Assembly (NCBI GenBank): GCA_017643845.1
Contig: JAEPMR010000001.1
Location: forward strand, 62,001 to 126,000
Length of the DNA: 64,000 nt
Origin: Marivivens sp.
GTDB taxonomy: Bacteria > Pseudomonadota > Alphaproteobacteria > Rhodobacterales > Rhodobacteraceae
Direction: 5' to 3'
Part shown: one piece after another, positions 6,332 through 21,636 of the stretch
Layout of the letters: each line of letters begins with the position of its first letter
Position numbering within the stretch: position 1 is the first letter of the stretch
Position numbers and translations under genes: made by a program
Notes under the pieces: generated by a model
Databases searched by the model: none
What the model was told of the DNA's origin: nothing
Seen by the model: only the letters and a program-made list of their open reading frames with translations

Positions 6332-7843
6332 TTAGGCCACCTTGTCTGAAACGATCCCCGAAATGGCCTGAACAAGCGAATCTTCGGTCACTTCCTCGGC
6401 CGTGAACTCGCGCATGACCTGCCCGTGATACATGGCGACGATCCTGTCGGAGACATGCAGCACTTCAGGCATTTCGGAGCTGATCACGATCACCGCATAG
6501 CCCTGCTTTGCCAGTTCGCGGATCAGGTTGTGAATCTCGGATTTGCTGCCAACGTCAATGCCGCGGGTCGGTTCATCCACGATCAGCACGTTGGGCTTCA
6601 TCGAGAGCCATTTGCCGATGACGATCTTCTGCTGGTTACCCCCCGACAAGTTGCCGACGGTCTGACGCCAACTGGGAGAGCGGATATCGAGCCGGTCGCG
6701 ATACTGGTCATAGATCGCGATCTCTGCGCCGTCAGAAACGAACGGGCCAGCGGTCAGGTCATCGACCTGCAGCAGCGTCATGTTATCGCGGCAGTTCATT
6801 CCAAGCACGAGGCCCTGCCCCTTGCGGTCCTCGGGCACGAGCGAGATGCCATGCCGGATCGCCTCGACAGGCGAATTGATTTTGACTTCCTGCCCTTCGA
6901 GGAAAATGCTGCCCGCATCCGCATCGCGAAGGCCAAAAATCGTTTCTGCGATCTCCGTCCGGCCAGCGCCGACCAGCCCGTAGAAGCCGACAACCTCGCC
7001 ACGGTGAACCTTGAAGCTCACGTCTTTGTAAAGGTTGCCGCAAGTCAGACCGCGCACTTCAAGCGCTACTTCGCCCAATTCGGGCGCTTCGACATTGCGG
7101 GTCAGATCGAGGCTGCGCCCGATCATCAGCTTGGTGACTTCATCCTCGTTGGTGTCCTTGGTCAACAAGGTACCGCGATACTGACCATCTCGCAGAACGC
7201 TGATCCGGTCGGAGATTTTGAAAATCTCCTCCATACGGTGGGAGATATAGATGATGCCGACGCCCTGCTTTTGCAGATCTTCGATCACATCAAAGAGCAC
7301 GACCTTTTCCGCGTCGGTAAGCGATGCGGTCGGCTCGTCAAAAATCACCGCTTTTGCGTCTACAGTCAGGGCGCGGGCGATCTCGACCATTTGCTGGTTA
7401 GCAATCGACAGATCGCCAACACGCGTTTTCGCGTTGAAGCCTACGTTCAGCTTGCCGAGGATCGCATCCGTTTCTTTATAGAGCGCATCCCAATCGACAC
7501 GGCCGAAGGATTTGCGCGGCAATTCACCAAGGAAGATGTTTTCCGCCACGCTCAATTCGTCCGCCAGCGAAAGCTCCTGGTGGATGAAGACCACGCCTTT
7601 GCCTTTCGCCTGAAGCGGTGAGTGCATCACCGTTTCCTGCTCTTCGATGTAGATGGTGCCTTCGTTTGGCTGGTAGATGCCGCCCAAAACCTTCATCAGG
7701 GTCGATTTACCGGCACCATTCTCGCCCATGAGAGCGTGAACTTCGCCTGGGATGACTTCGAAAGACACGCCGTCAAGCGCCCGTACGCCGGGGAAAGCTT
7801 TGACAATGTTTTCGAGGCGGAGAGCTGGTTTCGTATCACTCAT
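6332..7843 (-). CDS. Sugar ABC transporter ATP-binding protein, two-domain RbsA/MglA type
   Basis: GENGAGKSTLMKVLGG, IFDEPTASLT, second domain VGAGRTEIAETIFGL, LSGGNQQKIVIGKWL, VDEPTRGIDVGSK. Confidence 0.93.
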   Translation of the reverse strand: MSDTKPALRLENIVKAFPGVRALDGVSFEVIPGEVHALMGENGAGKSTLMKVLGGIYQPNEGTIYIEEQETVMHSPLQAKGKGVVFIHQELSLADELSVAENIFLGELPRKSFGRVDWDALYKETDAILGKLNVGFNAKTRVGDLSIANQQMVEIARALTVDAKAVIFDEPTASLTDAEKVVLFDVIEDLQKQGVGIIYISHRMEEIFKISDRISVLRDGQYRGTLLTKDTNEDEVTKLMIGRSLDLTRNVEAPELGEVALEVRGLTCGNLYKDVSFKVHRGEVVGFYGLVGAGRTEIAETIFGLRDADAGSIFLEGQEVKINSPVEAIRHGISLVPEDRKGQGLVLGMNCRDNMTLLQVDDLTAGPFVSDGAEIAIYDQYRDRLDIRSPSWRQTVGNLSGGNQQKIVIGKWLSMKPNVLIVDEPTRGIDVGSKSEIHNLIRELAKQGYAVIVISSEMPEVLHVSDRIVAMYHGQVMREFTAEEVTEDSLVQAISGIVSDKVA

Positions 7844-8841
7844 GTCTTCAACTCCTCTTTGCCTTTCGCGTTCAGCTGACGGTCAAGGAACAGAACCGCG
7901 ATCAGGATCAGACCGATGACAAGGTTCACCGTTTCGGTATCGGCCCCGATATGGCCGAGCCCCTTGCGCAATAGCTGGATGGCAATGACCCCGCCCAAGG
8001 TCGAGATGATCGACCCATAGCCGCCGGTCAGTTTGGTGCCGCCCAGAACAACAGCCGTAATCGCCCAGAGTTCGTAGAGCATACCGTCGTTCGGATTTAC
8101 CGAACCAGACTCGGAGTAGAACACCACCGCGCTGAGTGCAGCAAGGAAACCGATCAGCATGAAGTTGATCAGGAAGTGAGGTCCGACGCGGATACCGGCG
8201 TTCACCGCCGCTTCGCGGTTGTTGCCGATGGCGTAGGCGTTGCGACCATGGACGGTCTTGTTCATTACGAACCACAGCACCACCACCACAGCAGCAAGGA
8301 ACCATGTCGCGGTGTGCAATCCGAGGAATTGCGCCTCTGCAAAATCCACAAGCGTCCAGTTCAGATGGGAGGTAGGCTGCTCGCCATTATACATGAAGAC
8401 CAAGCCACGGAAGCCGAGCATGGAGCCGAGTGTCACGATGAAGGCATCGACACCGGTTTTCCAGACGATGAAGCCGTTGACCGCTCCGAGGATCACGCCG
8501 GTCATCAGCGCAAGCGCCCAGCCAACGAAGATGACGCCATCGCCAAGGCCGGCAAAGATAGGCCATGTCATCGAGTCGAGCAGGACAATCGCACTCAGCG
8601 CGAAGGTGGCCCCGACGCTGAGGTCGATATTGCCGTTGACCATGATGATGGTCATGCCAAGCGCGATGATCCCGATGGGCGCGGACTGCTTGAGAAGCAG
8701 CAGCATGTTATCGAAGTCCATGAAGGCCTTTTCCGATAGGGAAAGGAATTCACCCGCGACCGAGAAGAAGATCAGCTCGACCACGATAAAGGCCCAGATG
8801 GCGCCCTGTTTGATCAGGTTTGCCCGTGTTTCGCTATTCAT
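7840..8841 (-). CDS. Sugar ABC transporter permease, RbsC type
   Basis: VNGNIDLSVGATFALSAIV, GRNAYAIGNNREAAVNAGI, VVLGGTKLTGGYGS. Start at MNSETRANL, immediately after the preceding permease gene. Confidence 0.9.
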   Translation of the reverse strand: MNSETRANLIKQGAIWAFIVVELIFFSVAGEFLSLSEKAFMDFDNMLLLLKQSAPIGIIALGMTIIMVNGNIDLSVGATFALSAIVLLDSMTWPIFAGLGDGVIFVGWALALMTGVILGAVNGFIVWKTGVDAFIVTLGSMLGFRGLVFMYNGEQPTSHLNWTLVDFAEAQFLGLHTATWFLAAVVVVLWFVMNKTVHGRNAYAIGNNREAAVNAGIRVGPHFLINFMLIGFLAALSAVVFYSESGSVNPNDGMLYELWAITAVVLGGTKLTGGYGSIISTLGGVIAIQLLRKGLGHIGADTETVNLVIGLILIAVLFLDRQLNAKGKEELKT

Positions 8842-8852
8842 AACCCTCTCCC

Positions 8853-9827
8853 TCAGGCAATCGGTGACAACAGGCGGCCACGCTTCGCAGCGATGTCGAG
8901 CCACACGGCGAGGATAATGATCACCCAAGTCACGACGTACTGGACGTAGAACTCGAGGCCGACCAGCAGCAGTCCGTTCTGGATGAAGCCCAGGATCAGC
9001 ACGCCGATCACGGTTTTGAATACCGTTCCAGAGCCACCCAAGAGCGATGCACCACCGAGGATAACAGCGGCGAGCACTTCAAGCTCCATGCCCTGTCCCA
9101 CGGTGTTCTGACTGCCGAGCGAGCGGCTCGCCTGAATGAGACCAGCAGTCGCAACGCAAAACGCAGAGATCATGTAGGTCATGAACACGACGCGCGCACG
9201 CGGGATGCCGGAGAATGTCGCAGCGGTGCCGTTGCCGCCCACCGCGTATACCTTCCGGCCAAAGGGTGTCCGGGTCAGGATGATCGAAAGGATAATCGCC
9301 AGCACTACGAACATGACGATCGGCACCGGAATGCCCGCGACGGAGCCTTGGCCGAATACGCTGAACCAGGTGCCCTCTTTGTCAGCGATATCCATGTTCT
9401 TGCCGCCCGAATAAGTCAGGGTCAGGCCGTGGATGGCGGAGAGCATGCCCAAGGTCACAATCAATGAATTGAGCTTCAGATACCCTACCAAGAAGCCGAT
9501 AAAGGCACCGAGGCAGAGCGTCATCGCAAACATGGCCGGGATCGCCATCGTCGGGCCGATTTTGTCATGGAGGTCCAAAACGACGATGGTGGAGAATGAC
9601 ATCATCGACCCCACAGAGAGGTCGAGGTTGCCGCCGATCACGACGAAAGTGACGCCCAATGCCATCACACCGAGGATAGCGGACGACCGGATCACGCCAA
9701 AGACGTTATCAACAGCCAAAAATCGCTCGTTCGCGATCGCGAAACCGATCATGAACAGCACGAAAGCCACCAAAATCCCCTGTCGAGCCAATAGCCCGCC
9801 AATAGATTTCTTTGTCAGCTCAGCCAT
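8853..9827 (-). CDS. Sugar ABC transporter permease, RbsC type
   Basis: IGGNLDLSVGSMMSFSTIVV, FGRKVYAVGGNGTAATFSGI, VILGGASLLGGSGTV. Confidence 0.9.
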   Translation of the reverse strand: MAELTKKSIGGLLARQGILVAFVLFMIGFAIANERFLAVDNVFGVIRSSAILGVMALGVTFVVIGGNLDLSVGSMMSFSTIVVLDLHDKIGPTMAIPAMFAMTLCLGAFIGFLVGYLKLNSLIVTLGMLSAIHGLTLTYSGGKNMDIADKEGTWFSVFGQGSVAGIPVPIVMFVVLAIILSIILTRTPFGRKVYAVGGNGTAATFSGIPRARVVFMTYMISAFCVATAGLIQASRSLGSQNTVGQGMELEVLAAVILGGASLLGGSGTVFKTVIGVLILGFIQNGLLLVGLEFYVQYVVTWVIIILAVWLDIAAKRGRLLSPIA

Positions 9828-9860: not shown

Positions 9861-10658
9861 TCAGACCAATGTCATTCCACCGTCGATCATCACGATCTGT
9901 CCGGTCATGTAGTCACTGTCTTTCGACGCAAGGAACGTCGTCGTTCCCGTTATATCGTCTGGGCGCGCCACGCGGCCTTTCAGGATTTCGGCGGAGAATT
10001 CCTCCATCGCCTGACCTGGGCGTTCGGACGCACCAATCGCCATCAGGTCCCGGTCAACCTCTTCCCACATTTCGGTCGCGACCACGCCGGGTGCGAATCC
10101 GGTGACGGTGATATTGTGCTTTGCCAGATCCCGCGCGCCGGATTGCGTTAAGGAGACCACGGCCCACTTCGAAGCGCAATAGGGCGCCACGTTATCAAAG
10201 CCCTGACGGCTGGCGATCGACGCGGTATTGATGATCTTCCCGCCTGTACCTTGGGCAATCATTTGCTTGGCGGCTTCCTGCATGCCGATCATGCAGCCCA
10301 GCCCGTTGATGCCCATTATGAAATTCCAGTTGTCCTCGGTCGCATCGAGGAAATTCATCGGCTTGTTCACACCGGCGTTGTTGAATTTAACATCCAGCTT
10401 TCCGAAGACCGAAACCGCATGCGCGATCATTTCGCGGACCTGCTCGCGGTTTGTCACATCGACTGCGGCGTGCGTAACCTTGACGCCCGCCTCGGCCGCG
10501 CGGTCTTCATTATCGGCGGCGACCTGTGCAACTTTATCTGCGTTAATATCAGCGAAGCAGACGTCTGCTCCTTCGGCGATCAGGGCCTCACCAATAGCGC
10601 GGCCAATTCCCTGGGCTGCACCCGTTACGATGCACGACCGTCCAGCGACCCGTCCCAT
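9861..10658 (-). CDS. SDR-family NAD(P)-dependent oxidoreductase
   Basis: VTGAAQGIGRAIG, NNAGVNKP, S-x12-YCASK catalytic motif, ASKDSDYMTGQIVMIDGGMTLV. GGAGG ribosome-binding site precedes the ATG at 10658. Confidence 0.88.
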   Translation of the reverse strand: MGRVAGRSCIVTGAAQGIGRAIGEALIAEGADVCFADINADKVAQVAADNEDRAAEAGVKVTHAAVDVTNREQVREMIAHAVSVFGKLDVKFNNAGVNKPMNFLDATEDNWNFIMGINGLGCMIGMQEAAKQMIAQGTGGKIINTASIASRQGFDNVAPYCASKWAVVSLTQSGARDLAKHNITVTGFAPGVVATEMWEEVDRDLMAIGASERPGQAMEEFSAEILKGRVARPDDITGTTTFLASKDSDYMTGQIVMIDGGMTLV

Positions 10659-10734: not shown

Positions 10735-11685
10735 TTAGAACACCGGCTTGGTGAACTCGTCCATGTTGTCCTGAGTGATCTTCGGCGTGTCGAAGTAGTT
10801 CAGGAACGGCAGCTCTTCACCATTGAGGAGGTCAATCGCGGTTTTCAGAGCAGCTTCAGCGTCGTCAACCGGCGACTGGTAGATGGAGCCCCAGTATTCG
10901 CCAGCGGCCATTGCTTCGTAGCCAACTGCGAAGTTGGTTGCGCCGACGAAGATGATGCCTTCGCGACCGGCAGCTTTCGCAGCGTTCAGAGCGCCAACGC
11001 CCATGTTGTCGTCACCAGCATAGACGCCGTCGATGTCGTCATACTTCACGAGGAAGGCTTCCATGACCTGCTGGGACTTTTCACGGTTCCAGTCGCCAGG
11101 CTGCTGGTCGATCTGCTCTACGTTCGGGCAGACTTCCGGCAGGCGATCGTTAAAGCCTTTCGCGCGCTCGATCGCAGTGGTGTAGCCCGGCTGGCCGGTG
11201 ATGTGCACAACTTTGGCTTCGTTCTCGATGCCCATTTCCTTGAACTTGTCACACATGATTTCTGCAGAGCGGATACCCTGAGTGATGTTGTCCGGGCCGG
11301 AGAAGGACGCAACGAAGTCAAAACCGGCTTCAGCGATGTTGGAGTTGGTCACAACAACCGGAATGTCGGCCTGGTGAGCCTTACGAACGGCAGGGATCAC
11401 GGCTTCACCGTTGGTCGGCCAGATGATGATGGCGTCGACTTCCTGTTGGATGAGGTCTTCCATCTGAGCGATCTGACGTGCAACGTCGCCGCCTGCATCG
11501 AGAACAACCACTTCAACGTCTGCGTTGGCTTCTGCCGCTGCGATGAAGGCTTTCTCATAGGTGGTCTGGTAGCTGTCGACGCCCACGTTGTTCTGGGTGA
11601 TGCCGATGGTGTAGGTTTCGGCTGCTGCTGCGGAGCCGATCATAGCCGTGGTGCAGACCAAGGCAGCTTTGGTAACGGATTTCAT
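10735..11685 (-). CDS. Sugar ABC transporter substrate-binding protein, RbsB-like
   Basis: Signal peptide MKSVTKAALVCTTAMIGSAAAAE; periplasmic-binding type I motifs DAIIIWPTNGEAVIPAVRKAHQADIPVVVTNS; GVYAGDDNMGVGAL. Start chosen at the signal peptide rather than the longer ORF. Confidence 0.9.
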   Translation of the reverse strand: MKSVTKAALVCTTAMIGSAAAAETYTIGITQNNVGVDSYQTTYEKAFIAAAEANADVEVVVLDAGGDVARQIAQMEDLIQQEVDAIIIWPTNGEAVIPAVRKAHQADIPVVVTNSNIAEAGFDFVASFSGPDNITQGIRSAEIMCDKFKEMGIENEAKVVHITGQPGYTTAIERAKGFNDRLPEVCPNVEQIDQQPGDWNREKSQQVMEAFLVKYDDIDGVYAGDDNMGVGALNAAKAAGREGIIFVGATNFAVGYEAMAAGEYWGSIYQSPVDDAEAALKTAIDLLNGEELPFLNYFDTPKITQDNMDEFTKPVF

Positions 11686-11768
11686 TTGGGTTCCTCCCGT
11701 AAACTTCAGTTCTCGATTGCGCTCGCCCTCTTCTGCGATGCGGGAATCATGCCCGCTGCAATCTAGTA

Positions 11769-11984
11769 ATATCCATCGCGGATTTAATTGCCTCAATTCT
11801 ACTCGATTTTGTTCAAATTGAATATTTTGACATTCATTTTGGATATCTGCCCCCTGTAGACTGGATATCAACTTGGACAATTTAGGAGCACTGACATGGA
11901 TCGTGCGATTCCATCTCAACCCAAATCATTCAAAGCGGACAAAATGAATACGCAGTCGGGGGCACATACTATCCAATCTGGATA
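11769..11984. promoter_or_regulatory. Cluster of TGGATA half-sites (candidate operators) in the divergent SBP/regulator promoter region
   Basis: TATCCA at 11770-11775; TGGATATC at 11840-11847 and 11862-11869 (22-bp spacing); inverted repeat TATCCA-ATC-TGGATA at 11970-11984. Confidence 0.45.
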
Positions 11985-13704
11985 CAGTTCGGATGCATTC
12001 CGAACTGGTGCTGAGCTTGAGACTGTCGTTTCGTTTCTAGAACAGCTTTGTATGGAAGTGGACAGTTCGCTCGATCCAACGGCTCCAAACCCGTATCTGA
12101 ATATGAGCCTGCACCTGCTGCGGAGCCACTTTGACGGGCGGATCGTAACGGCGTCGTCGCTGGTAGCGAGTTCCGGCGTGCCCTATGCAACGGCAACGCG
12201 ACGGCTGGCGGAGCTTCAGGCGTCGGGATTGATCGAACAGCGCCCGCGCACGCGCTCGGGTAAAAGTTTCTCGCTCCATCCCAGCCAGCAGATGCTGACA
12301 CGCTGGAGCGAACTGGCGGATCGCCTGAACCGGCTCGGGACCGGATATTTCGGGAAGGGGGGCAGCTCCTCGGAAACGACAGACTACTATTTCGGTGGCT
12401 CGTACCAACCCGGACAGGGATTGATCAGCCCGCCGAAGGTCATGGCGTCACCGATCAAGCTTCAGGGTGGCTTGCGGATTTTGGTGCATGGCGATCCGAC
12501 CTTCATGGTGATGGACAATCTCAAGCGCCAGTTCGAGCAGCTGATCGGCACCAAGATCAATCAGCGCGCGTTTTCCATCGACCGTCTCCGCGAAGAGGCG
12601 CTGCGCAATGCCACACGCAGCACCAGCCGCTATGACATCATTGCAGTCGACCTCCCATGGCTCGGTGAATTCGTCTCGAAAGGGATTGTGAAGCCGCTTT
12701 CCGATGTCATGGACGTGGAACGGCTGGACCCAAGCGATTTTCACACCGCCGGATGGCGCGCGGCCCATTGGGGCGGGGTGCCTTACGGTGTGCCGAGCCA
12801 GACGACGCCGGAACTCATGTTCTACCGCCGAGACTGGTTTGCCGAAGCCGGTCTTGCGCCGCCCACGACGACGCAGGCTGTGCTGGACGCTGCCAAGGTA
12901 CTGCATGATCCGCGTCATGGCCGGTATGGGGTTGCATGGAACGCAGCGCGTGGAACGGCTCTGGGCCACACATTTATTATGACCTGCGCGGACTTTGGTC
13001 AGCCAATCGTCAACCTGCCCGAAATCGCTGGAGGCTTTGACGCCGACCATCTGGACCGTGACGACATTCGCCCCACGATTGATACCGAAGGCGGACGGGA
13101 AGCGGCAGAATACCTGCTCTCTCTCTTGGACTACTCGCCACCCGATATCCTGTCGATGTCGTGGTACGAGCGGGTCCGGCCCTATGCCGCTGGCAAGATC
13201 GCTATGGCCTATGGCTACACACTACTGGCCCCTTATTTCGAGCTGGACCCCAGCTCCCCCGCATATGACAATACAGGCTATCTGCCCCACCCGCACGGGC
13301 CGAACGGAGCCCCGATTGCACCAGTGGGCGGCTACATATTCTGTATTCCGAGCAACCTTGCGCAGGAGCGCGTGGCAGAAACGGTCGAGGCTTTGACCGC
13401 TTTCACCTCGCCCGAATCACAAAAACTCTACGTCCAGAATGGCAGCCGTACAGCGCCCCGCTATTCGGTCGGCGCCGATCCGGAAGTGCGCCGCCTGTCG
13501 CCCATTTTCGAAACCGTGGATCAGATGTCGTGGCGCGATGAGCTGCAATTCTGGCCGCGCCCGCCCGTGCCGCAAATCTCTGACATCATCCAGATCTGCG
13601 GCCACGAGATCCACGACATGCTTCGCGGGGTGCATAGCCCCCGTGAAGCGCTCGCCCGCGCACAAGCGCGTGCGGAACAAGCAATGATTAAGACGGTCAC
13701 TTAG
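11896..13704 (+). CDS. Predicted one-component regulator: N-terminal winged helix fused to an extracellular-solute-binding-protein family 1-like domain, no signal peptide
   Basis: wHTH-like RIVTASSLVASSGVPYATATRRLAELQASGLIEQRPRTRSGKSFSLHPS, then SBP_bac_1-like LRILVHGDPTFMVMDNLKRQFEQLIGTKI...RYDIIAVDLPWLGEFVSKGIVKPLSD...PYGVPSQTTPELMFYRRDWFAEAGL. RBS aggag upstream of 11896. Confidence 0.78.
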   Translation: MDRAIPSQPKSFKADKMNTQSGAHTIQSGYSSDAFRTGAELETVVSFLEQLCMEVDSSLDPTAPNPYLNMSLHLLRSHFDGRIVTASSLVASSGVPYATATRRLAELQASGLIEQRPRTRSGKSFSLHPSQQMLTRWSELADRLNRLGTGYFGKGGSSSETTDYYFGGSYQPGQGLISPPKVMASPIKLQGGLRILVHGDPTFMVMDNLKRQFEQLIGTKINQRAFSIDRLREEALRNATRSTSRYDIIAVDLPWLGEFVSKGIVKPLSDVMDVERLDPSDFHTAGWRAAHWGGVPYGVPSQTTPELMFYRRDWFAEAGLAPPTTTQAVLDAAKVLHDPRHGRYGVAWNAARGTALGHTFIMTCADFGQPIVNLPEIAGGFDADHLDRDDIRPTIDTEGGREAAEYLLSLLDYSPPDILSMSWYERVRPYAAGKIAMAYGYTLLAPYFELDPSSPAYDNTGYLPHPHGPNGAPIAPVGGYIFCIPSNLAQERVAETVEALTAFTSPESQKLYVQNGSRTAPRYSVGADPEVRRLSPIFETVDQMSWRDELQFWPRPPVPQISDIIQICGHEIHDMLRGVHSPREALARAQARAEQAMIKTVT

Positions 13705-13714
13705 GGAGGATACC

Positions 13715-14524
13715 ATGGACCCCAATCGCCTCAACGGAAAGAACATCCTGATCACCGGCGCTGCCCGCGGTATGGGCGCAGCCAACGCTGAAGCATTCGC
13801 CGCACAAGGCGCGAATGTCTGCCTTGGTGATCTGGACCTCGACGAAGCCCAGAAAGTTGCTGACGGCATCAACGCCAAAGGCAATGGCAAGGCGATTGCG
13901 GTGAAGATGGATGTCACCAAGCGCGAAGACAACGCCGCAGCCGTCGCTGCTACCGTCGACGCTTTTGGCAGCATCAATGTGGGCCTATTTAACGCCGGTC
14001 TGAACAAGCCCCGGTTCTTCATGGATATCGATGAAGACAACTGGGACATGATCATGAACGTCAACACGAAGGCGATGTGGCTCGGCATGCAGGAAACTGC
14101 CAAGCAGATGATCGCCCAAGGTCCGATGGAAGATCACCCCTACAAGCTGATCAACGTCGGCTCTATCGCCAGCCGCAAGCCTCTGGTCGATGTAACGGTT
14201 TACTGTACGTCCAAGTACGGCTGTCTGGCGCTGACCGAGTGCGGTGCACTGGGCCTTGCCGAGCACAACATCACCGTCAACGGCTACGCGCCGGGCGTTG
14301 TTGTGACCCCGCTCTGGGAGCAGCTGGACAAAGACCTCGTCGAGATCGGCTTCAAAGAACGCGCAGGCCAAGCATATGACGACATCGTTGAGAACAACCT
14401 CGTCATCAAGCGCGTGTCCTACCCCAACGACATCGTGGGCACCGCGTCCTTCCTCGCATCTGACGACAGCGACTACATGACCGGCCAGATGATCTCGATC
14501 GACGGTGGCTGGGTCACGAAGTAA
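13715..14524 (+). CDS. SDR-family NAD(P)-dependent oxidoreductase
   Basis: ITGAARGMGAANAEAF, NAGLNKP, S...YCTSK, DSDYMTGQMISIDGGWVTK. Confidence 0.88.
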   Translation: MDPNRLNGKNILITGAARGMGAANAEAFAAQGANVCLGDLDLDEAQKVADGINAKGNGKAIAVKMDVTKREDNAAAVAATVDAFGSINVGLFNAGLNKPRFFMDIDEDNWDMIMNVNTKAMWLGMQETAKQMIAQGPMEDHPYKLINVGSIASRKPLVDVTVYCTSKYGCLALTECGALGLAEHNITVNGYAPGVVVTPLWEQLDKDLVEIGFKERAGQAYDDIVENNLVIKRVSYPNDIVGTASFLASDDSDYMTGQMISIDGGWVTK

Positions 14525-14546
14525 CCCACCCGCCCTCGCCTCATCC

Positions 14547-14576
14547 GACGGGCCGGTAACGGCCCGTCACCCTTTT
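14547..14576 (+). terminator. Hairpin with short T-run after the SDR gene
   Basis: Perfect 8-bp stem gacgggcc-ggtaac-ggcccgtc (14547-14568), then acccttttag. Confidence 0.55.
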
Positions 14577-14623
14577 AGACTAACACACCCTCAACATGCG
14601 GCCCGCCGCAGAAGGAGAAACTC

Positions 14624-15922
14624 ATGTCACGCGCACTTATGCCGAACCTCCTGACACCTCAGGATCTCGAACCCAACTGGGAATGGCGGGACAAGCTGCC
14701 CGCTTGGGGTCATATGTCTGTCGATTTCGAACGCCGGATCGACCATGACCGCCTGCGTCGCTACCGTTTGGCGCGTACCCGTCAGGCGCTTCAGAACTCG
14801 AATGCCGGTACGCTTCTGTTGTTCGATGTGAACAACATCCGCTACGTCTCCGCCACCAAGATCGGTGAATGGGAGCGTGACAAGATGTGCCGTTTCTGCC
14901 TGCTGACCGGCGATGACAGCCCCTACGTTTGGGATTTCGGCTCCGCTGCGGCGCACCACAAGCTGCACTCCGACTGGCTTGAGCCCGATCACTGCCTTGC
15001 CGGTGTTGTGGGCATGCGCGGCACGATCCCGCCCGAATTCGGCCTGATGAAGAAATACGCCAAGCAGATTGCGGGCCTGATCCGCGACGCAGGCATGGGC
15101 AACATGCCGGTCGGTGTGGACTATGCCGAAACCGCGATGTTCCACGCCCTTCAGGAAGAAGGCCTAAACGTTGTCGACGGCCAGCAGATCATGCTCGCCG
15201 CCCGCGAGATCAAGAACTGGGACGAAATCCAGCTTCTGACGCAGGCTGCCTCGATGGTGGATGGCGTCTATCACATGATCTACGAAGAGCTGAAGCCGGG
15301 CGTGCGCGAGAACGACATCGTCGCCCTGTCCAACAAGATGCTCTACGAGATGGGCTCGGATGACGTGGAAGCGATCAACGCCATTTCCGGCGAGCGCTGC
15401 AACCCGCACCCGCACAACTTCTCGGATCGCATGATCCGTCCGGGTGATCAGGCGTTCTTCGACATTCTGCAATCGTATCAGGGCTATCGCACCTGTTACT
15501 ACCGGACCTTCAACGTCGGCCGTGCAACGCCCGCGCAGAACGATGCTTATGTGAAAGCGCGTGAATGGATCGACGCCTCGATCCAGATGATCAAGCCGGG
15601 TGTCACCACCGATAAGGTCGCCGCAGTCTGGCCGACCGCGCAAGAGCTTGGCTTCGCCAGCGAAGATCAGGCATTTGGCCTGCAATTCGGTCACGGGCTC
15701 GGTCTGGCGCTGCACGAGCGGCCGATCATCTCCCGCGCGGTCAGCATGGACCACCCGATGGAGATCCAGACCGGCATGGTGTTCGCGCTGGAAACCTACT
15801 GCCCCGCCGCCGACGGCTACTCTGCCGCACGGATCGAGGAAGAGGTTGTCGTGACGGAGACCGGCTGCGAGGTGATCAGCCTCTTCCCCGCCGAAGAACT
15901 GCCGATCGCAAACCGCTACTAA
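14624..15922 (+). CDS. M24-fold (Xaa-Pro peptidase/creatinase/DddP-like) protein
   Basis: Creatinase-like N-terminal domain (LLLFDVNNIRYVSATKIG), then pita-bread motifs DQAFFDILQSYQGYRTCYYRTFNVG, LQFGHGLGLALHERP, GMVFALETYC, ARIEEEVVVTETG. Confidence 0.8.
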   Translation: MSRALMPNLLTPQDLEPNWEWRDKLPAWGHMSVDFERRIDHDRLRRYRLARTRQALQNSNAGTLLLFDVNNIRYVSATKIGEWERDKMCRFCLLTGDDSPYVWDFGSAAAHHKLHSDWLEPDHCLAGVVGMRGTIPPEFGLMKKYAKQIAGLIRDAGMGNMPVGVDYAETAMFHALQEEGLNVVDGQQIMLAAREIKNWDEIQLLTQAASMVDGVYHMIYEELKPGVRENDIVALSNKMLYEMGSDDVEAINAISGERCNPHPHNFSDRMIRPGDQAFFDILQSYQGYRTCYYRTFNVGRATPAQNDAYVKAREWIDASIQMIKPGVTTDKVAAVWPTAQELGFASEDQAFGLQFGHGLGLALHERPIISRAVSMDHPMEIQTGMVFALETYCPAADGYSAARIEEEVVVTETGCEVISLFPAEELPIANRY

Positions 15923-15979: not shown

Positions 15980-16966
15980 ATGAGCCCCGCCAAGAAAGCC
16001 AAGACGAACACGGAAGACTATCTGCGGATGTACCGCCAGATGGTGCGCATCCGTTCCTTTGAGGACAACGCAAACCAGCTGTATCTCGCTGCCAAGATGC
16101 CTGGCCTGACGCATATGTATTCGGGCGAGGAAGCCGTTGCCGTGGGTATCTGCGAAGCGCTGACCGATAATGACCGGATCACCTCTACCCACCGGGGCCA
16201 CGGACATTGCGTCGCCAAAGGTGCAGAGTTCAAAGAGATGTTCTGCGAGCTTCTGGGCAAGGAAGAGGGCTATTGCCGCGGCAAGGGCGGCTCCATGCAT
16301 ATCGCGGACCAAAGCCACGGCAACCTCGGTGCCAATGCAATCGTTGGCGGCTCGATGGGCATTGCGACCGGCTCTGCTCTGCGGGCTAAGCTGCAGGGCT
16401 CTGACGATGTGACCGTATGTTTCTTTGGCGACGGCGCGACGGCTCAGGGCCTGATGTACGAAGTGATGAACATGGCCGCGTTGTGGAACCTGCCGGTGAT
16501 CTACGCTTGCGAAAACAACGGCTATTCCGAATACACCCGCACCGACGAAATCGCTGCCGGTTCAATCACCGCGCGCGCAGAGGCATTCGGCATCGAAGCG
16601 TTCCAGATCGACGGGCAGGACGTTCTCGCCGTCAACGATCTGGCGCAGAAGCTGGTTGCCCGCTGCCGCAAGGGCGAAGGCCCGTTTTTCATCGAATTGA
16701 TGACCTACCGCTATCACGGTCACCACGTGGGCGACATCAACCGCGAATACTACCGCTCGAAGGAAGAAGAGAAGGATTGGAAAGACAATCGCGATCCGAT
16801 CATCCGCTTCCGCAGCTATCTCGTCGAGCAGGGCATCGCCTCTGAAGAAGAAATCGAAGCGATGAACGCCGAGATCAAGGCCGATGCGGAAGCCGCCGTC
16901 GAATACGCGCTGAATGCCAAATACCCCGATGCGTCCGAAGTGGACATGCACGTGTTTGCGGACTGA
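15980..16966 (+). CDS. Thiamine-PP-dependent dehydrogenase E1 alpha subunit (acetoin/pyruvate dehydrogenase-like)
   Basis: GKGGSMHIADQSHGNLGANAIVGGSMGIATGSAL, TPP motif FFGDGATAQGLMYEVMNMAALWNLPVIYACENNGYSEYT. Confidence 0.88.
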   Translation: MSPAKKAKTNTEDYLRMYRQMVRIRSFEDNANQLYLAAKMPGLTHMYSGEEAVAVGICEALTDNDRITSTHRGHGHCVAKGAEFKEMFCELLGKEEGYCRGKGGSMHIADQSHGNLGANAIVGGSMGIATGSALRAKLQGSDDVTVCFFGDGATAQGLMYEVMNMAALWNLPVIYACENNGYSEYTRTDEIAAGSITARAEAFGIEAFQIDGQDVLAVNDLAQKLVARCRKGEGPFFIELMTYRYHGHHVGDINREYYRSKEEEKDWKDNRDPIIRFRSYLVEQGIASEEEIEAMNAEIKADAEAAVEYALNAKYPDASEVDMHVFAD

Positions 16967-16977
16967 GGAGAGAAAGA

Positions 16978-17973
16978 ATGAGAAATATTACCCTTTCGCA
17001 GGCCGTGAACGAGGCTCTGGCCGAAGAAATGCGCCGCGACGAAACCGTTTTCATTATCGGTGAGGACGTGGCCGAAGCGGGAACGCCGTTCAAAATCCTC
17101 TCCGGCTTGGTCGAGGAGTTCGGAACCGACCGCGTGATCGACACACCGATCGCCGAGCCTGGCTTTATGGGCATGGCCGTGGGTGCGGCGATGACCGGCT
17201 CGCGCCCTGTCGTTGACCTGATGTTCGGGGACTTCATCTTCCTGATCATGGACCAGCTCTGCAATCAGGCTGCCAAGACGCATTATATGTCGGGCGGCAA
17301 GCTGAACGTGCCGCTGGTGGTGCGTACAAACCTCGGCGCGACACGCCGCTCGGCCGCTCAGCACAGCCAGTCGCTTCAGGCACTGGTTGCGCATATTCCG
17401 GGGCTGAAAGTCGCGCTGCCCTCCTCCGCCTATGAGGCGAAGGGTTTGCTCAAGACCGCCATCCGCGACAACAACCCTGTTGTGATCTTCGAAGACAAGC
17501 TGATGTATCAGGACAAGGCTGAGGTTCCCGAAGAGGAATACCTGATCCCGTTCGGCGAAGCCAACATCAAGCGCGAAGGCTCCGACATCACCCTGATCGC
17601 AACCTCGTCGATGGTGCAGGTTGCCGAAAAAGCTGCCGAGATGCTCGCAGCTGAAGGCATCAGCGCCGAAGTAATTGATCCGCGCACCATCGTGCCGCTG
17701 GATGAGAAAACACTGATCGAAAGCGTCAAAAAGACCTCCCGCGCCATCGTGATTGACGAGGGACACCAGAGCTATGGCGTGACCAGCGAGATCGCGTCGC
17801 GCCTGAACGAAAACGCGTTTTATCACCTTGATGCGCCAGTGCTGCGGATGGGTGCGATGGACGTGCCGGTGCCGTTCAGCCCTGCGCTGGAAGACATCAC
17901 CGTTCCGACGCCGGAAGCCGTAGTCGAGAATGCGCGCAAGCTCTGCTCAGGGGAGATGATCCATGCCGCATGA
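16978..17973 (+). CDS. Thiamine-PP-dependent dehydrogenase E1 beta subunit (acetoin/pyruvate dehydrogenase-like)
   Basis: GEDVAEAGTPFKILSGLVEEFGTDRVIDTPIAEPGFMGMAVGAAMTGSRPVVDLMFGDF, typical transketolase-like E1 beta. Confidence 0.9.
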   Translation: MRNITLSQAVNEALAEEMRRDETVFIIGEDVAEAGTPFKILSGLVEEFGTDRVIDTPIAEPGFMGMAVGAAMTGSRPVVDLMFGDFIFLIMDQLCNQAAKTHYMSGGKLNVPLVVRTNLGATRRSAAQHSQSLQALVAHIPGLKVALPSSAYEAKGLLKTAIRDNNPVVIFEDKLMYQDKAEVPEEEYLIPFGEANIKREGSDITLIATSSMVQVAEKAAEMLAAEGISAEVIDPRTIVPLDEKTLIESVKKTSRAIVIDEGHQSYGVTSEIASRLNENAFYHLDAPVLRMGAMDVPVPFSPALEDITVPTPEAVVENARKLCSGEMIHAA

Positions 17974-19291
17974 CGTCATCATGCCGGCCCTCGGCATGGC
18001 GCAAGACAGCGGCGTGCTCGTGCGCTGGATCAAACAGGCGGGTGAGCCTGTCGCGGAGGGCGATGCGCTCTTCGAGGTGGAAACCGACAAGGCCACAATG
18101 GAAGTCGAGGCACAGGCTGCGGGCTTTCTGACAAATGTCACGGCGTCCGAGGGGCAGGATGTGCCCGTCGGGCAGGTGATCGCACTGATCTCCGATACCG
18201 CCGAAGGCAGCGCGGACGCACCTGCGGCTGCACCCGCCGCCGCCAGCTCTGATGCTCCGGCAAGCGACGTGCCTGAAGGCAACGCCGTCATCATGCCCGC
18301 ACTGGGCATGGCACAGGACACCGGTTTGATCGTCAGCTGGCAGAAAGAGCCGGGCGACAAGATCGCCGCCGACGATGTGCTTTTCGAGGTGGAAACCGAC
18401 AAGAGCACCGTCGAGGTTCCGGCAGGCCAAAACGGCTATCTGGCCGCATTGCTCGCGGAAGCGGGCGATGATGTGCCGGTAGGCGAAACGGTGGCGATCA
18501 TCTCCGATAGCGCCCCAGCCAACCCGATGCGCCGCGCCTATGCTGCCGGTGCCGCTGCACCCGCAGCGCCCGCTCCGGCAGCACCCGCTCCCGCACCTGC
18601 GAAGGCAGAGGCCGCACCCGCTCCGGCTCCGGCACCTGCGAAGGCACCTGCGCCGGTCGTCAGTGGTGGCAAGATCCTCGCCTCACCAAAGGCGCGTCGC
18701 TTGGCCGCCGAGCGCGGACTGGACCTGAACCGCTTGGTTAGCGAAGGCTATCCGCAGCCCTATCATGTTAAGGATATTGACACGCTGGCCGCGCTCCCGC
18801 CAATCCAGGCACAGGCTGTGGGCGCCACCGTCGCGGCAGCAGCACGCCTGACCGCGCGCGCGGATGCGGACGGTTTCACCGGCTTCGCAAGCTGGGCCGC
18901 GTCAGAAGCGGGCGTTTCTGATGCCGACAGCCTTCTGGCCGGTCTTGGCGCTGCAAGTCTGCGCTCGGGCTCGGGTGATCTGGTGGTCGCGGTTGAACGT
19001 TTCGGCCAAAGCCGTCACTATGTGAATGCTGATCTTCCACGCTTGGGCGCGGCGTCTGCCGCCGAGGAAGAGATCCACGCCGATCTGATCATCCGCGACA
19101 TTCGCGGCTCTCGGATCACTTCGGTTGCGACCGGCGCTGAAGCCGCTCCCGTCCTGACCATCGGCAATGATGGCGACGGGCTGTCGATCACACTCGAATA
19201 TGGTGGCGGCCAGCTTGCTCCGGCAGCGGCCATCGCCCTGATTTCCGAATTCGCAGGCCGCATGGAAATGCCCATGCGCCACCTGCTCTGA
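17963..19291 (+). CDS. E2-like protein with two lipoyl domains and a PSBD but a degenerate C-terminal acyltransferase-like domain
   Basis: Two lipoyl motifs FEVETDKATMEV and FEVETDKSTVEV; PSBD ILASPKARRLAAERGLDLNRL. The C-terminus SITLEYGGGQLAPAAAIALISEFAGRMEMPMRHLL lacks the HRxxDG active-site motif. Confidence 0.82.
   Translation: MPHDVIMPALGMAQDSGVLVRWIKQAGEPVAEGDALFEVETDKATMEVEAQAAGFLTNVTASEGQDVPVGQVIALISDTAEGSADAPAAAPAAASSDAPASDVPEGNAVIMPALGMAQDTGLIVSWQKEPGDKIAADDVLFEVETDKSTVEVPAGQNGYLAALLAEAGDDVPVGETVAIISDSAPANPMRRAYAAGAAAPAAPAPAAPAPAPAKAEAAPAPAPAPAKAPAPVVSGGKILASPKARRLAAERGLDLNRLVSEGYPQPYHVKDIDTLAALPPIQAQAVGATVAAAARLTARADADGFTGFASWAASEAGVSDADSLLAGLGAASLRSGSGDLVVAVERFGQSRHYVNADLPRLGAASAAEEEIHADLIIRDIRGSRITSVATGAEAAPVLTIGNDGDGLSITLEYGGGQLAPAAAIALISEFAGRMEMPMRHLL
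18541..18660 (+). repeat. Low-complexity Ala/Pro-rich linker-coding repeat inside the lipoyl protein gene
   Basis: Encodes AAPAAPAPAAPAPAPAKAEAAPAPAPAPAKAPAP. Confidence 0.8.
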
Positions 19292-19308
19292 CCTGAAAGG
19301 CCGATCCC

Positions 19309-20736
19309 ATGGATTATACCGATCTCTACATCAACGGCAGCTGGAGCAAAGGCAACGGCGAGCGGTTTGACGTGATCAACCCTGCCACCGAAGAAGTGCT
19401 CGCCTCAGTCGCTTCCGCCGATATCGCGGACGCTGATGCCGCACTCGACGCCGCCGAGAAAGCAATGGCCGAGTGGGCCGCCCGCACGCCACGCCAGCGC
19501 TCGGAAGTGCTGCGCAAGGCGTGGGAGCTGATGACCGCAAAGCTCGACCATTTCGCGCATCTGATCACGCTTGAAAACGGCAAAGCCCGGGCTGATGCGA
19601 TGGGCGAGGCAACCTATGCTGCCGAGTTCTTCCGCTGGTTTGCCGAAGAAGCCGTGCGTGCCGATGGCCTGATCACCCATGCGCCCGCTTCCGGCGCACG
19701 GATCATGGTGCAGCACAAGCCTGCGGGCCTTGCTGTGCTGGTTACGCCGTGGAACTACCCCGCTGCGATGGGCACTCGCAAGATCGCGCCAGCGTTGGCC
19801 GCTGGTTGTGGTGTGATCATAAAACCGGCCTCGGAAACCCCGCTGACCATGCTGGCGCTAATGCCGCTCTTGGAAGAAGCAGGCGTACCGGCTGGCCTCG
19901 TTAACGTACTGCCCTCAAAGCGGACAGGCGCGTTGGTGGACCATATGCTGCATGACCCACGCGTACGCGTTGTCAGCTTCACCGGCTCCACCGGTGTTGG
20001 ACGCAAGCTTCTGCATTCCGCAGCCGACCAGGTACTGAAACCGGCGATGGAGCTGGGCGGCAACGCGCCTTGTATCGTATTTGACGATGCCGACATGGAT
20101 ACCGCCATCGAAGGCACCATGCTCGCCAAGATGCGCAACCTCGGTGAGGCTTGCACGGCTGCCAACCGTATCTATGTGCATGAGGACGTGGCTGAGGAAT
20201 TCACCCGCCGCCTGACCGAGCGCATGGAAGCGCTGAAAGTGGGCGATGGCACCGACCCGAGCGTCGATGTTGGCCCGCTGGTCAATGCCGACACACGCGA
20301 TAAGGTTGCCGAGTTCGTCGCAGATGCAGTCGCCAAGGGTGCAAAGGTCGAGTGCGGCGGCAACACGCCGAACGGCAAAGGCTTTTTCTACCCGCCGACC
20401 GTTCTATCGAACGTGCCGGAACATGCTGAATGTGTGCGGGACGAGATTTTCGGACCGGTCGCAGCGATCCAGACCTTCACCGATCAGGAAGATGTGATCC
20501 GGCGCGCCAATGACACCGAATACGGCCTCGTCGCCTATGTCTTCTCTGAAGACTTCAAGCGCGCGCTTCAGGTTTGTGAGCGGCTCGATTACGGCATGGT
20601 CGGCCTGAACCGTGGCCTCGTCAGCGATCCGGCAGCGCCCTTCGGCGGCACCAAGCAATCGGGCCTCGGGCGCGAAGGCGGCCATGAGGGCATGCTGGAG
20701 TTCATGGAAACGCAGTACATTTCTGCAAGCTGGTAG
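19309..20736 (+). CDS. Aldehyde dehydrogenase family protein (succinate-semialdehyde dehydrogenase-like)
   Basis: TPWNYPAAMGTRKIAPALAAGCGVIIKPASETP, FTGSTGVGRKLL, MELGGNAPCIVFDDAD, NLGEACTAANRIYVHE. Confidence 0.9.
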   Translation: MDYTDLYINGSWSKGNGERFDVINPATEEVLASVASADIADADAALDAAEKAMAEWAARTPRQRSEVLRKAWELMTAKLDHFAHLITLENGKARADAMGEATYAAEFFRWFAEEAVRADGLITHAPASGARIMVQHKPAGLAVLVTPWNYPAAMGTRKIAPALAAGCGVIIKPASETPLTMLALMPLLEEAGVPAGLVNVLPSKRTGALVDHMLHDPRVRVVSFTGSTGVGRKLLHSAADQVLKPAMELGGNAPCIVFDDADMDTAIEGTMLAKMRNLGEACTAANRIYVHEDVAEEFTRRLTERMEALKVGDGTDPSVDVGPLVNADTRDKVAEFVADAVAKGAKVECGGNTPNGKGFFYPPTVLSNVPEHAECVRDEIFGPVAAIQTFTDQEDVIRRANDTEYGLVAYVFSEDFKRALQVCERLDYGMVGLNRGLVSDPAAPFGGTKQSGLGREGGHEGMLEFMETQYISASW

Positions 20737-20745
20737 GGGCGCATT

Positions 20746-21636
20746 ATGTCCGAGATCATAGCCTCCCCCTCTGTGCGCGTTCTCGCGCAGGAAAAGGGGA
20801 TCGACATTGACGCACTCGCCAAGAAACTGGGCCGCACGACCATCGGTCGCGAGGATTTGGAAGGCACCGCCACCCCTGCGGCAGCAGCGGCGGCGCCTGC
20901 AGCGGGCACGTCATATTGGAACGTCGATCACAGCCATTACGGGCCGGTGACGGAAGAGCCGATGAGCCGTTTTGCCAAGGTCGCCAGCGCGAACCTGTCG
21001 GCGGCGAACCAGCTCATTCCGCAAGTGACGCATCATGACCGTGCAGATGTTTCCGGCATCGAAGCGCTCCGCAAGGCGTGGAAAGGCGAGGCCATCGCGC
21101 GCGGCGTCAAGCTCACCGCGCTGGCCTTTCACGTCAAGGCACTGGCGCGCGCGCTGCGGGAGTTCCCGCGCTTCAACGCGTCGCTCTCGGCCGATGGCGA
21201 AACCCTATACCTCAAGGATTTTGTCCATATCGGCATCGCGGTGGACACGCCGCATGGGCTGATGGTGCCAGTGATCCGCGATGCGGACCGTAAAGGCCTG
21301 TGGCAGATCGCGGCAGAGATCACCGATCTCGCCAGCCGCGCGCAGGCCCGCAAGATCGCACCGGACGAGATGGGCGGCGCGTCGATGTCGATCTCCAACC
21401 TCGGTGGCTTGGGCGGCACGGCCTTCACGCCGATCGTTAATCCGCCGGAGGTTGCGATCCTCGGCATCACCCGCACAGAGACCATCACCGTATGGGACGG
21501 CGAAACGCCACGCCCCGTGCCGATGGTCCCGCTTGATCTGAGCTACGATCACCGCGTGATCAACGGTGCGGATGCCGCCTGCTTCATGTCCTTTCTGGCT
21601 GGTGTGATCGCTGATCCGCGCCGGATGATGATCTGA
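20746..21636 (+). CDS. E2-type acyltransferase with a PSBD and an intact catalytic domain but no lipoyl domain
   Basis: Starts directly with PSBD IIASPSVRVLAQEKGIDIDALAKKLG; catalytic SYDHRVINGADAACFMSFL present; no N-terminal lipoyl motif. Confidence 0.85.
   Translation: MSEIIASPSVRVLAQEKGIDIDALAKKLGRTTIGREDLEGTATPAAAAAAPAAGTSYWNVDHSHYGPVTEEPMSRFAKVASANLSAANQLIPQVTHHDRADVSGIEALRKAWKGEAIARGVKLTALAFHVKALARALREFPRFNASLSADGETLYLKDFVHIGIAVDTPHGLMVPVIRDADRKGLWQIAAEITDLASRAQARKIAPDEMGGASMSISNLGGLGGTAFTPIVNPPEVAILGITRTETITVWDGETPRPVPMVPLDLSYDHRVINGADAACFMSFLAGVIADPRRMMI

Follow-up and report, generated by a model that had tools for sequence, protein, structure and literature searches.

The protein of 602 amino acids encoded on the forward strand at positions 11896-13704 of the window, the 64,000-nucleotide stretch of a Marivivens genome analysed here, combines a MarR-type DNA-binding domain, as predicted by structural modelling, with a family 1 solute-binding (SBP_bac_1) domain and lacks a signal peptide. 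The missing export signal, the MarR domain and the occurrence of the same palindromes at adjacent promoters in many marine bacteria make it very likely that the protein belongs to an unrecognised regulator family which senses sugars or polyols. We regard it as probable that it works as a one-component regulator of importer and catabolic genes, repressing them until a ligand is bound in the cytoplasm. In public annotation, members of the family are called 'extracellular solute-binding protein' only. The features of the locus are collected in Table 1.

Table 1. Features at and around the regulator gene, in positions of the window (SBP, solute-binding protein; SDR, short name of the oxidoreductase type)
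Feature	Coordinates	Strand	Basis
CUT2 importer: two permeases and ATPase	6332..9827	-	78/80 loci
SDR oxidoreductase (acetoin reductase / L-iditol dehydrogenase-like)	9861..10658	-	77/80 loci
Divergent RbsB/YtfQ-type periplasmic SBP of the CUT2 importer	10735..11685	-	80/80 loci
Predicted operator O1, TTCAAATTGAA (consensus TCCANNNTGGA)	11812..11822		ranked second in 64 kb by the matrix (18.6); footprint
Predicted operator O2, TTCATTTTGGA, 21 bp from O1	11833..11843		ranked first in 64 kb by the matrix (19.7); footprint
Probable weaker operator O3, ATCAACTTGGA, just 5' of the ribosome site	11867..11877		conserved footprint +55 from O1; weak by matrix
MarR-SBP_bac_1 fusion regulator, 602 aa, without signal peptide	11896..13704	+	ORF, Pfam, upstream frame, family alignment
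Perfect TCCAATCTGGA site early in the coding sequence of the regulator	11972..11982		ranked third in 64 kb by the matrix (16.5)
MarR-type DNA-binding domain (modelled), residues 32-155	11989..12360	+	AlphaFold2, Foldseek, recognition-helix conservation
Linker, residues 156-189, mostly low confidence, with conserved DYYFGGSY motif (163-170)	12361..12462	+	pLDDT, alignment
SBP_bac_1 domain, putative ligand sensor, residues 190-598	12463..13689	+	PF01547, PDB relatives, core conservation
SDR oxidoreductase directly 3' of the regulator	13715..14524	+	80/80 loci
M24-family hydrolase, DddP-like	14624..15922	+	126 bits vs DddP cut-off 600
Conserved catabolic genes for a TPP-dependent dehydrogenase (E1 alpha/E1 beta/lipoyl E2), an aldehyde dehydrogenase and an E2 catalytic part	15980..21636	+	conservation; same order on Phaeobacter plasmid

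The open reading frame was confirmed to be real, with an AGGAG ribosome site 8 nt 5' of a start that is kept, as GTG, in a sister genome of 93% identity. Upstream of the ATG the frame is open for 12 codons only before a stop is met, so that a mis-start cannot hide a signal peptide. Neither the signal peptide nor the lipobox of periplasmic ABC binding proteins is present, the N-terminus being formed by the DNA-binding domain. An ordinary periplasmic binding protein with a misread start, as the name used in public annotation would imply, is thus ruled out by the upstream stop to the point of being negligible, and the N-terminal region, conserved over more than 100 residues and modelled as MarR, also speaks against it. 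A reading frame for 602 amino acids devoid of a signal peptide had been proposed in an earlier note on this DNA, which had itself considered that a mis-start might merge a signal peptide into the protein; the proposal is upheld and the mis-start excluded.

Besides an N-terminal helix and helix H2, residues 32-155 comprise, in the models, a winged helix-turn-helix (wHTH) with recognition helix 97-109 and wing 113-129 and a long C-terminal helix, and within this recognition helix the residues T99 and R102 are invariant across 49 regulators. Predicted alone by AlphaFold2 (71 related sequences), the N-terminal 157 residues follow the order H-H-H-H-E-E-H with pLDDT >88 across the winged helix; the full-chain prediction (72 related sequences), of moderate confidence only (mean pLDDT 71; below 50 at residues 154-178), places the winged helix at 66-129, a long helix at 131-152 and the SBP domain from residue 193. 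When the N-terminal model was compared with the PDB by Foldseek, the top 50 matches were MarR-type or similar winged-helix regulators with MexR first (E 1.4e-4). Together with the model, these matches narrow the 'MarR/GntR-like' winged helix, which the earlier note had placed at about residues 75-130, to MarR; a model lacking the wHTH, the outcome that would have spoken against that note in its suggested AlphaFold check, did not result for the N-terminal part, and the C-terminal part likewise contained the expected SBP domain. GntR or IclR identity is weaker than MarR in sequence as well as in fold. Among Pfam models only SBP_bac_1/8 exceed the threshold in the 602-residue protein, MarR_2 staying sub-threshold in the N-terminal part with 22.8 bits versus a gathering score of 27. 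The terminal helices of MarR proteins form the dimer, and helices for dimerisation are found at both ends of the modelled domain, which would accordingly be a whole MarR fold, more than a bare wHTH. With a profile of the N-terminal domain, strong matches in 199 genomes occurred in the fusion only and never stand-alone. Residues 1-38, the coding DNA of which includes the predicted operator at 11972-11982, are poorly conserved and modelled with low confidence.

The identity of the C-terminal SBP_bac_1 domain is certain. PF01547 matches residues 213-510 with an E-value of 5.6e-26 (92.7 bits versus a gathering score of 26), PDB relatives of the domain are 5iai (Arad_9887; 3e-24) and 1eu8 (TMBP; 4e-20), and Foldseek with the whole chain retrieves CUT1 sugar-binding proteins, again 5iai (5.5e-22) and 1eu8 (4.9e-20). 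The family 1 extracellular solute-binding domain recognised earlier behind the wHTH therefore stands. Of the 45 core positions that vary little or not at all among 49 regulators, 40 are shared with a genuine transport SBP, which suggests that the domain likely still binds a ligand, in this case in the cytoplasm. The SBP fold by itself is no proof of ligand binding, and the domain might alternatively be a structural or partner-binding module that docks, for example, on the importer. We consider such a module improbable, as the core positions retained by these diverged regulators are largely those of a genuine transport protein, and as the importers beside members of the family differ in type (several CUT2 kinds, and CUT1 in L152, where the regulator gene and the CUT1 importer operon point in opposite directions as a divergent pair), so that no common docking partner is apparent.

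The surroundings of the gene and of its relatives offer hints to the ligand. Relatives of the query in the contig collection numbered 443, some of which may not be fusions, and the best 80 were kept. In these 80 closest loci of 443, the divergent RbsB-type SBP and the downstream SDR gene are present without exception (80/80), 78 loci retain the genes of the importer, and M24, E1, E2 and aldehyde dehydrogenase genes occur in most, contig ends cutting some loci. The binding protein of the divergent importer, described beforehand as RbsB type, is confirmed as RbsB/YtfQ type. In group II (L137, L139, L140, L166) the SDR and, where in view, the M24 and E1/E2 genes are kept, and the importer is replaced by a distant one. 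Both Marivivens paralogues adjoin inositol 2-dehydrogenase genes (above cut-off), and a member from a small genome, L163, adjoins IolG and IolE. These neighbours of other copies point to cyclitols and polyols as our best guess for the ligand class, which is not proven for the copy at 11896-13704.

The catabolic genes themselves deserve description. The M24 hydrolase belongs to a strongly conserved cassette which also contains two acetoin-reductase-like SDRs, TPP-dependent E1/E2 and an aldehyde dehydrogenase; it stands for an uncharacterised catabolic pathway, of which no description was found in the literature search. The score of the M24 protein is far too low for DddP, and the pathway substrate is not named by it. 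On the Phaeobacter inhibens plasmid pP66_g (37733-56068; L162) the same genes, together with lpdA, form a self-contained cassette; its completeness between plasmid genes on a 61-kb plasmid suggests horizontal transfer as a unit. In the 1.4-Mb genomes of about 35% GC (L163, L164, L165), the regulator is accompanied by an HpaI-type aldolase, a CUT2-like importer, SDR2/M24 genes and, as shown for L163, by IolG and IolE, and the predicted operator is present at two or three promoters.

The intergenic region between the divergent genes carries a predicted operator with the core TCCA-N3-TGGA, and the specific operator next to its own gene that is expected of a one-component transcription factor is here a finding of comparative genomics. 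The exact consensus was counted 67 times in 81 promoters versus 1.15 in shuffles, and pairs of sites are present in 75 of the 81 promoters versus 3.6 expected from shuffles, with 21 bp as the dominant spacing. Column conservation outlines a sharp tandem footprint and a third conserved block which adjoins the ribosome site. With a site matrix trained on other species, the window being left out, the three best positions of the 64 kb (11833, 11812 and 11972) are all located at the regulator gene; window sites scoring at least 16 number three versus 0.07 in shuffles, and a search of the 3.19-Mb assembly retrieves the tandem pattern a single time, while the reversed control does not contain it. The site at 11972-11982 is retained in the sister genome with an altered centre base.

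The strongest and independent test of the predicted operator is provided by diverged relatives (32-51% identity) with unrelated importers, which possess the site at their own promoters (L137, L139, L150); in group II it is found at the RbsB/SDR promoter, several genes away from the regulator gene. The site extends further to the members of about 35% GC and 1.4 Mb and to a genome outside the class (L163-L167), L167, the one from outside, having the same 21-bp tandem. It was not found at the diverged members L148, L151, L153 and L168. If the palindrome belonged to another regulator and merely neighboured the gene at 11896-13704, it would not be expected to track this family through several diverged groups with unrelated neighbours and to be absent from three SBP-only loci, as it does and is; no second regulator gene common to the loci was seen either, and such a coincidence is very improbable.

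How the fusion protein might act on these sites can be outlined as follows. A complete MarR-type dimeric domain would have been joined to a CUT1 SBP_bac_1 domain that lost its signal peptide. One dimer would bind one TCCA-N3-TGGA palindrome through its MarR domain, and O1 and O2, spaced by two helical turns, would be occupied by two adjacent dimers. These would be situated between the promoter of the importer operon and the divergent one that drives the regulator and catabolic operon, and without ligand both operons would be repressed. Once a polyol, cyclitol, sugar or early breakdown product builds up in the cytoplasm, the two-lobed SBP domain would close on it and thereby release, or re-set, the MarR dimer.

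Repression is favoured by the MarR fold in combination with sites at the gene's own start: MarR-fold proteins are mostly repressors, and O3 beside the ribosome site as well as the one site within the ORF start fit autorepression. The same regulator and operator could, on the other hand, constitute a ligand-dependent activator or dual regulator, which we judge rather unlikely but the most serious of the alternatives. A consensus scan of 11600-12000 retrieved no sigma-70-like promoter, so that the geometry of the operator fixes neither the order of operator and promoter nor repression versus activation, and the promoter served by the site in group II is separated from the regulator gene by several genes. 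Furthermore, E. coli SgrR is annotated as a dual regulator, and DsvR controls its targets positively (PMC13060122). Ligand-relieved repression is nonetheless the reading we prefer.

One-component regulators with a binding-protein sensor are a known kind; the pairing of MarR with SBP_bac_1 was not found described in the literature searched. Closest in design are SgrR and DsvR of E. coli and Vibrio cholerae, cytoplasmic one-component regulators with an N-terminal wHTH, a C-terminal solute-binding domain and a link to sugar uptake; SgrR is autoregulated in E. coli (PMC13060122). The domains themselves differ, SgrR consisting of SgrR_N (PF12793) and SBP_bac_5 (PF00496) and the present protein of a modelled MarR fold and SBP_bac_1. 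In the 602-residue protein no match was obtained to SgrR_N (E. coli SgrR as positive control 2e-43) or to SBP_bac_5, only SBP_bac_1/8 being retrieved (SgrR control 2e-21), and hhalign of the whole chain to SgrR gave a probability of 0.4% over 13 columns with a single-sequence template. Membership in the SgrR family is rejected on these grounds; judged from sequence, the protein is SgrR-like in design and no SgrR homologue by any test made. The SgrR-like design with another SBP family, as suggested in the earlier note, consequently holds as an analogy, and its view of a wHTH-SBP_bac_1 protein without signal peptide that regulates the divergent importer gains support from the conserved predicted operator, the 80/80 synteny among the best 80 of 443 relatives, three paralogues and the independent comparison with SgrR, with which no Pfam model is shared.

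With MexR and MarR the protein shares, in its N-terminal 125 residues, a complete modelled MarR fold, and a palindromic (predicted) operator. MarR proteins have about 140 amino acids and bind the ligand within that domain, whereas here an SBP domain of 400 residues is added and the match stays below the Pfam gathering score. To CUT1 sugar-binding proteins (5iai, 1eu8 and L015, the latter at 40% identity) the homology extends across the whole C-terminal domain with the core kept, but those proteins are exported and serve a transporter, while this one has a DNA-binding domain and no signal peptide. Reuse of a periplasmic-binding-protein fold as sensor on a DNA-binding domain is familiar from LacI/GalR regulators, in which, however, an RbsB-type type I fold is combined with a lambda-repressor-like HTH in place of a MalE-type fold with a MarR domain; at the present locus the RbsB type belongs to the importer and is absent from the regulator.

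Of 298 sampled Rhodobacteraceae genomes, about 50 contain members of the family (54 matches, a few of them SBP-only or partial), and the Marivivens genome has three copies, with two paralogues at about 40% identity located elsewhere. Members also occur in 1.4-Mb alphaproteobacterial genomes of about 35% GC, reminiscent of SAR11 in size and GC, and one in a genome outside the Alphaproteobacteria. The nearest transport relative, L015, is a genuine CUT1 binding protein with a signal peptide, is encoded beside CUT1-type permease genes and has 40% identity to the sensor domain. The SBP-domain tree, from which two far SBPs were left out, places every regulator on the same side of one branch (94/86); this placement, like the genuine transport nature of L015, is consistent with one fusion event. 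As signal-peptide CUT1 binding protein, L015 / L130 is a candidate for the ancestor of the captured domain, or for its sister, and may give access to the ligand. In L089 the orthologous regulator is present twice (6893-8728 and 12780-14636), the second copy directly before the SDR gene, and a sister genome contains a regulator fragment (L016, G001) with a match over 173 residues, probably the remnant of a fourth copy.

The literature searched, with most subscription journals outside its scope and absence therefore being no proof, describes no wHTH-SBP_bac_1 regulator, which within this partial coverage agrees with the earlier remark that no characterised regulator is known to have this architecture. 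On balance we lean towards an unnamed, widespread family that arose by a single fusion of MarR and CUT1 domains, uses one operator code, TCCA-N3-TGGA, from small-genome alphaproteobacteria of low GC to roseobacters, and reads cyclitols, polyols or their keto forms by a cytoplasmic Venus-flytrap cleft of periplasmic origin. Behind the name 'extracellular solute-binding protein' a regulator family of abundant marine bacteria, linked to their uptake of carbohydrates and cyclitols, would thus have been concealed, the regulons of which can be read directly from sequence by means of the predicted operator. A MalE-type periplasmic cleft would have been converted into a switch for the cytoplasm in an event independent of SgrR and of LacI, and the design may give a route to sensors of new ligands.
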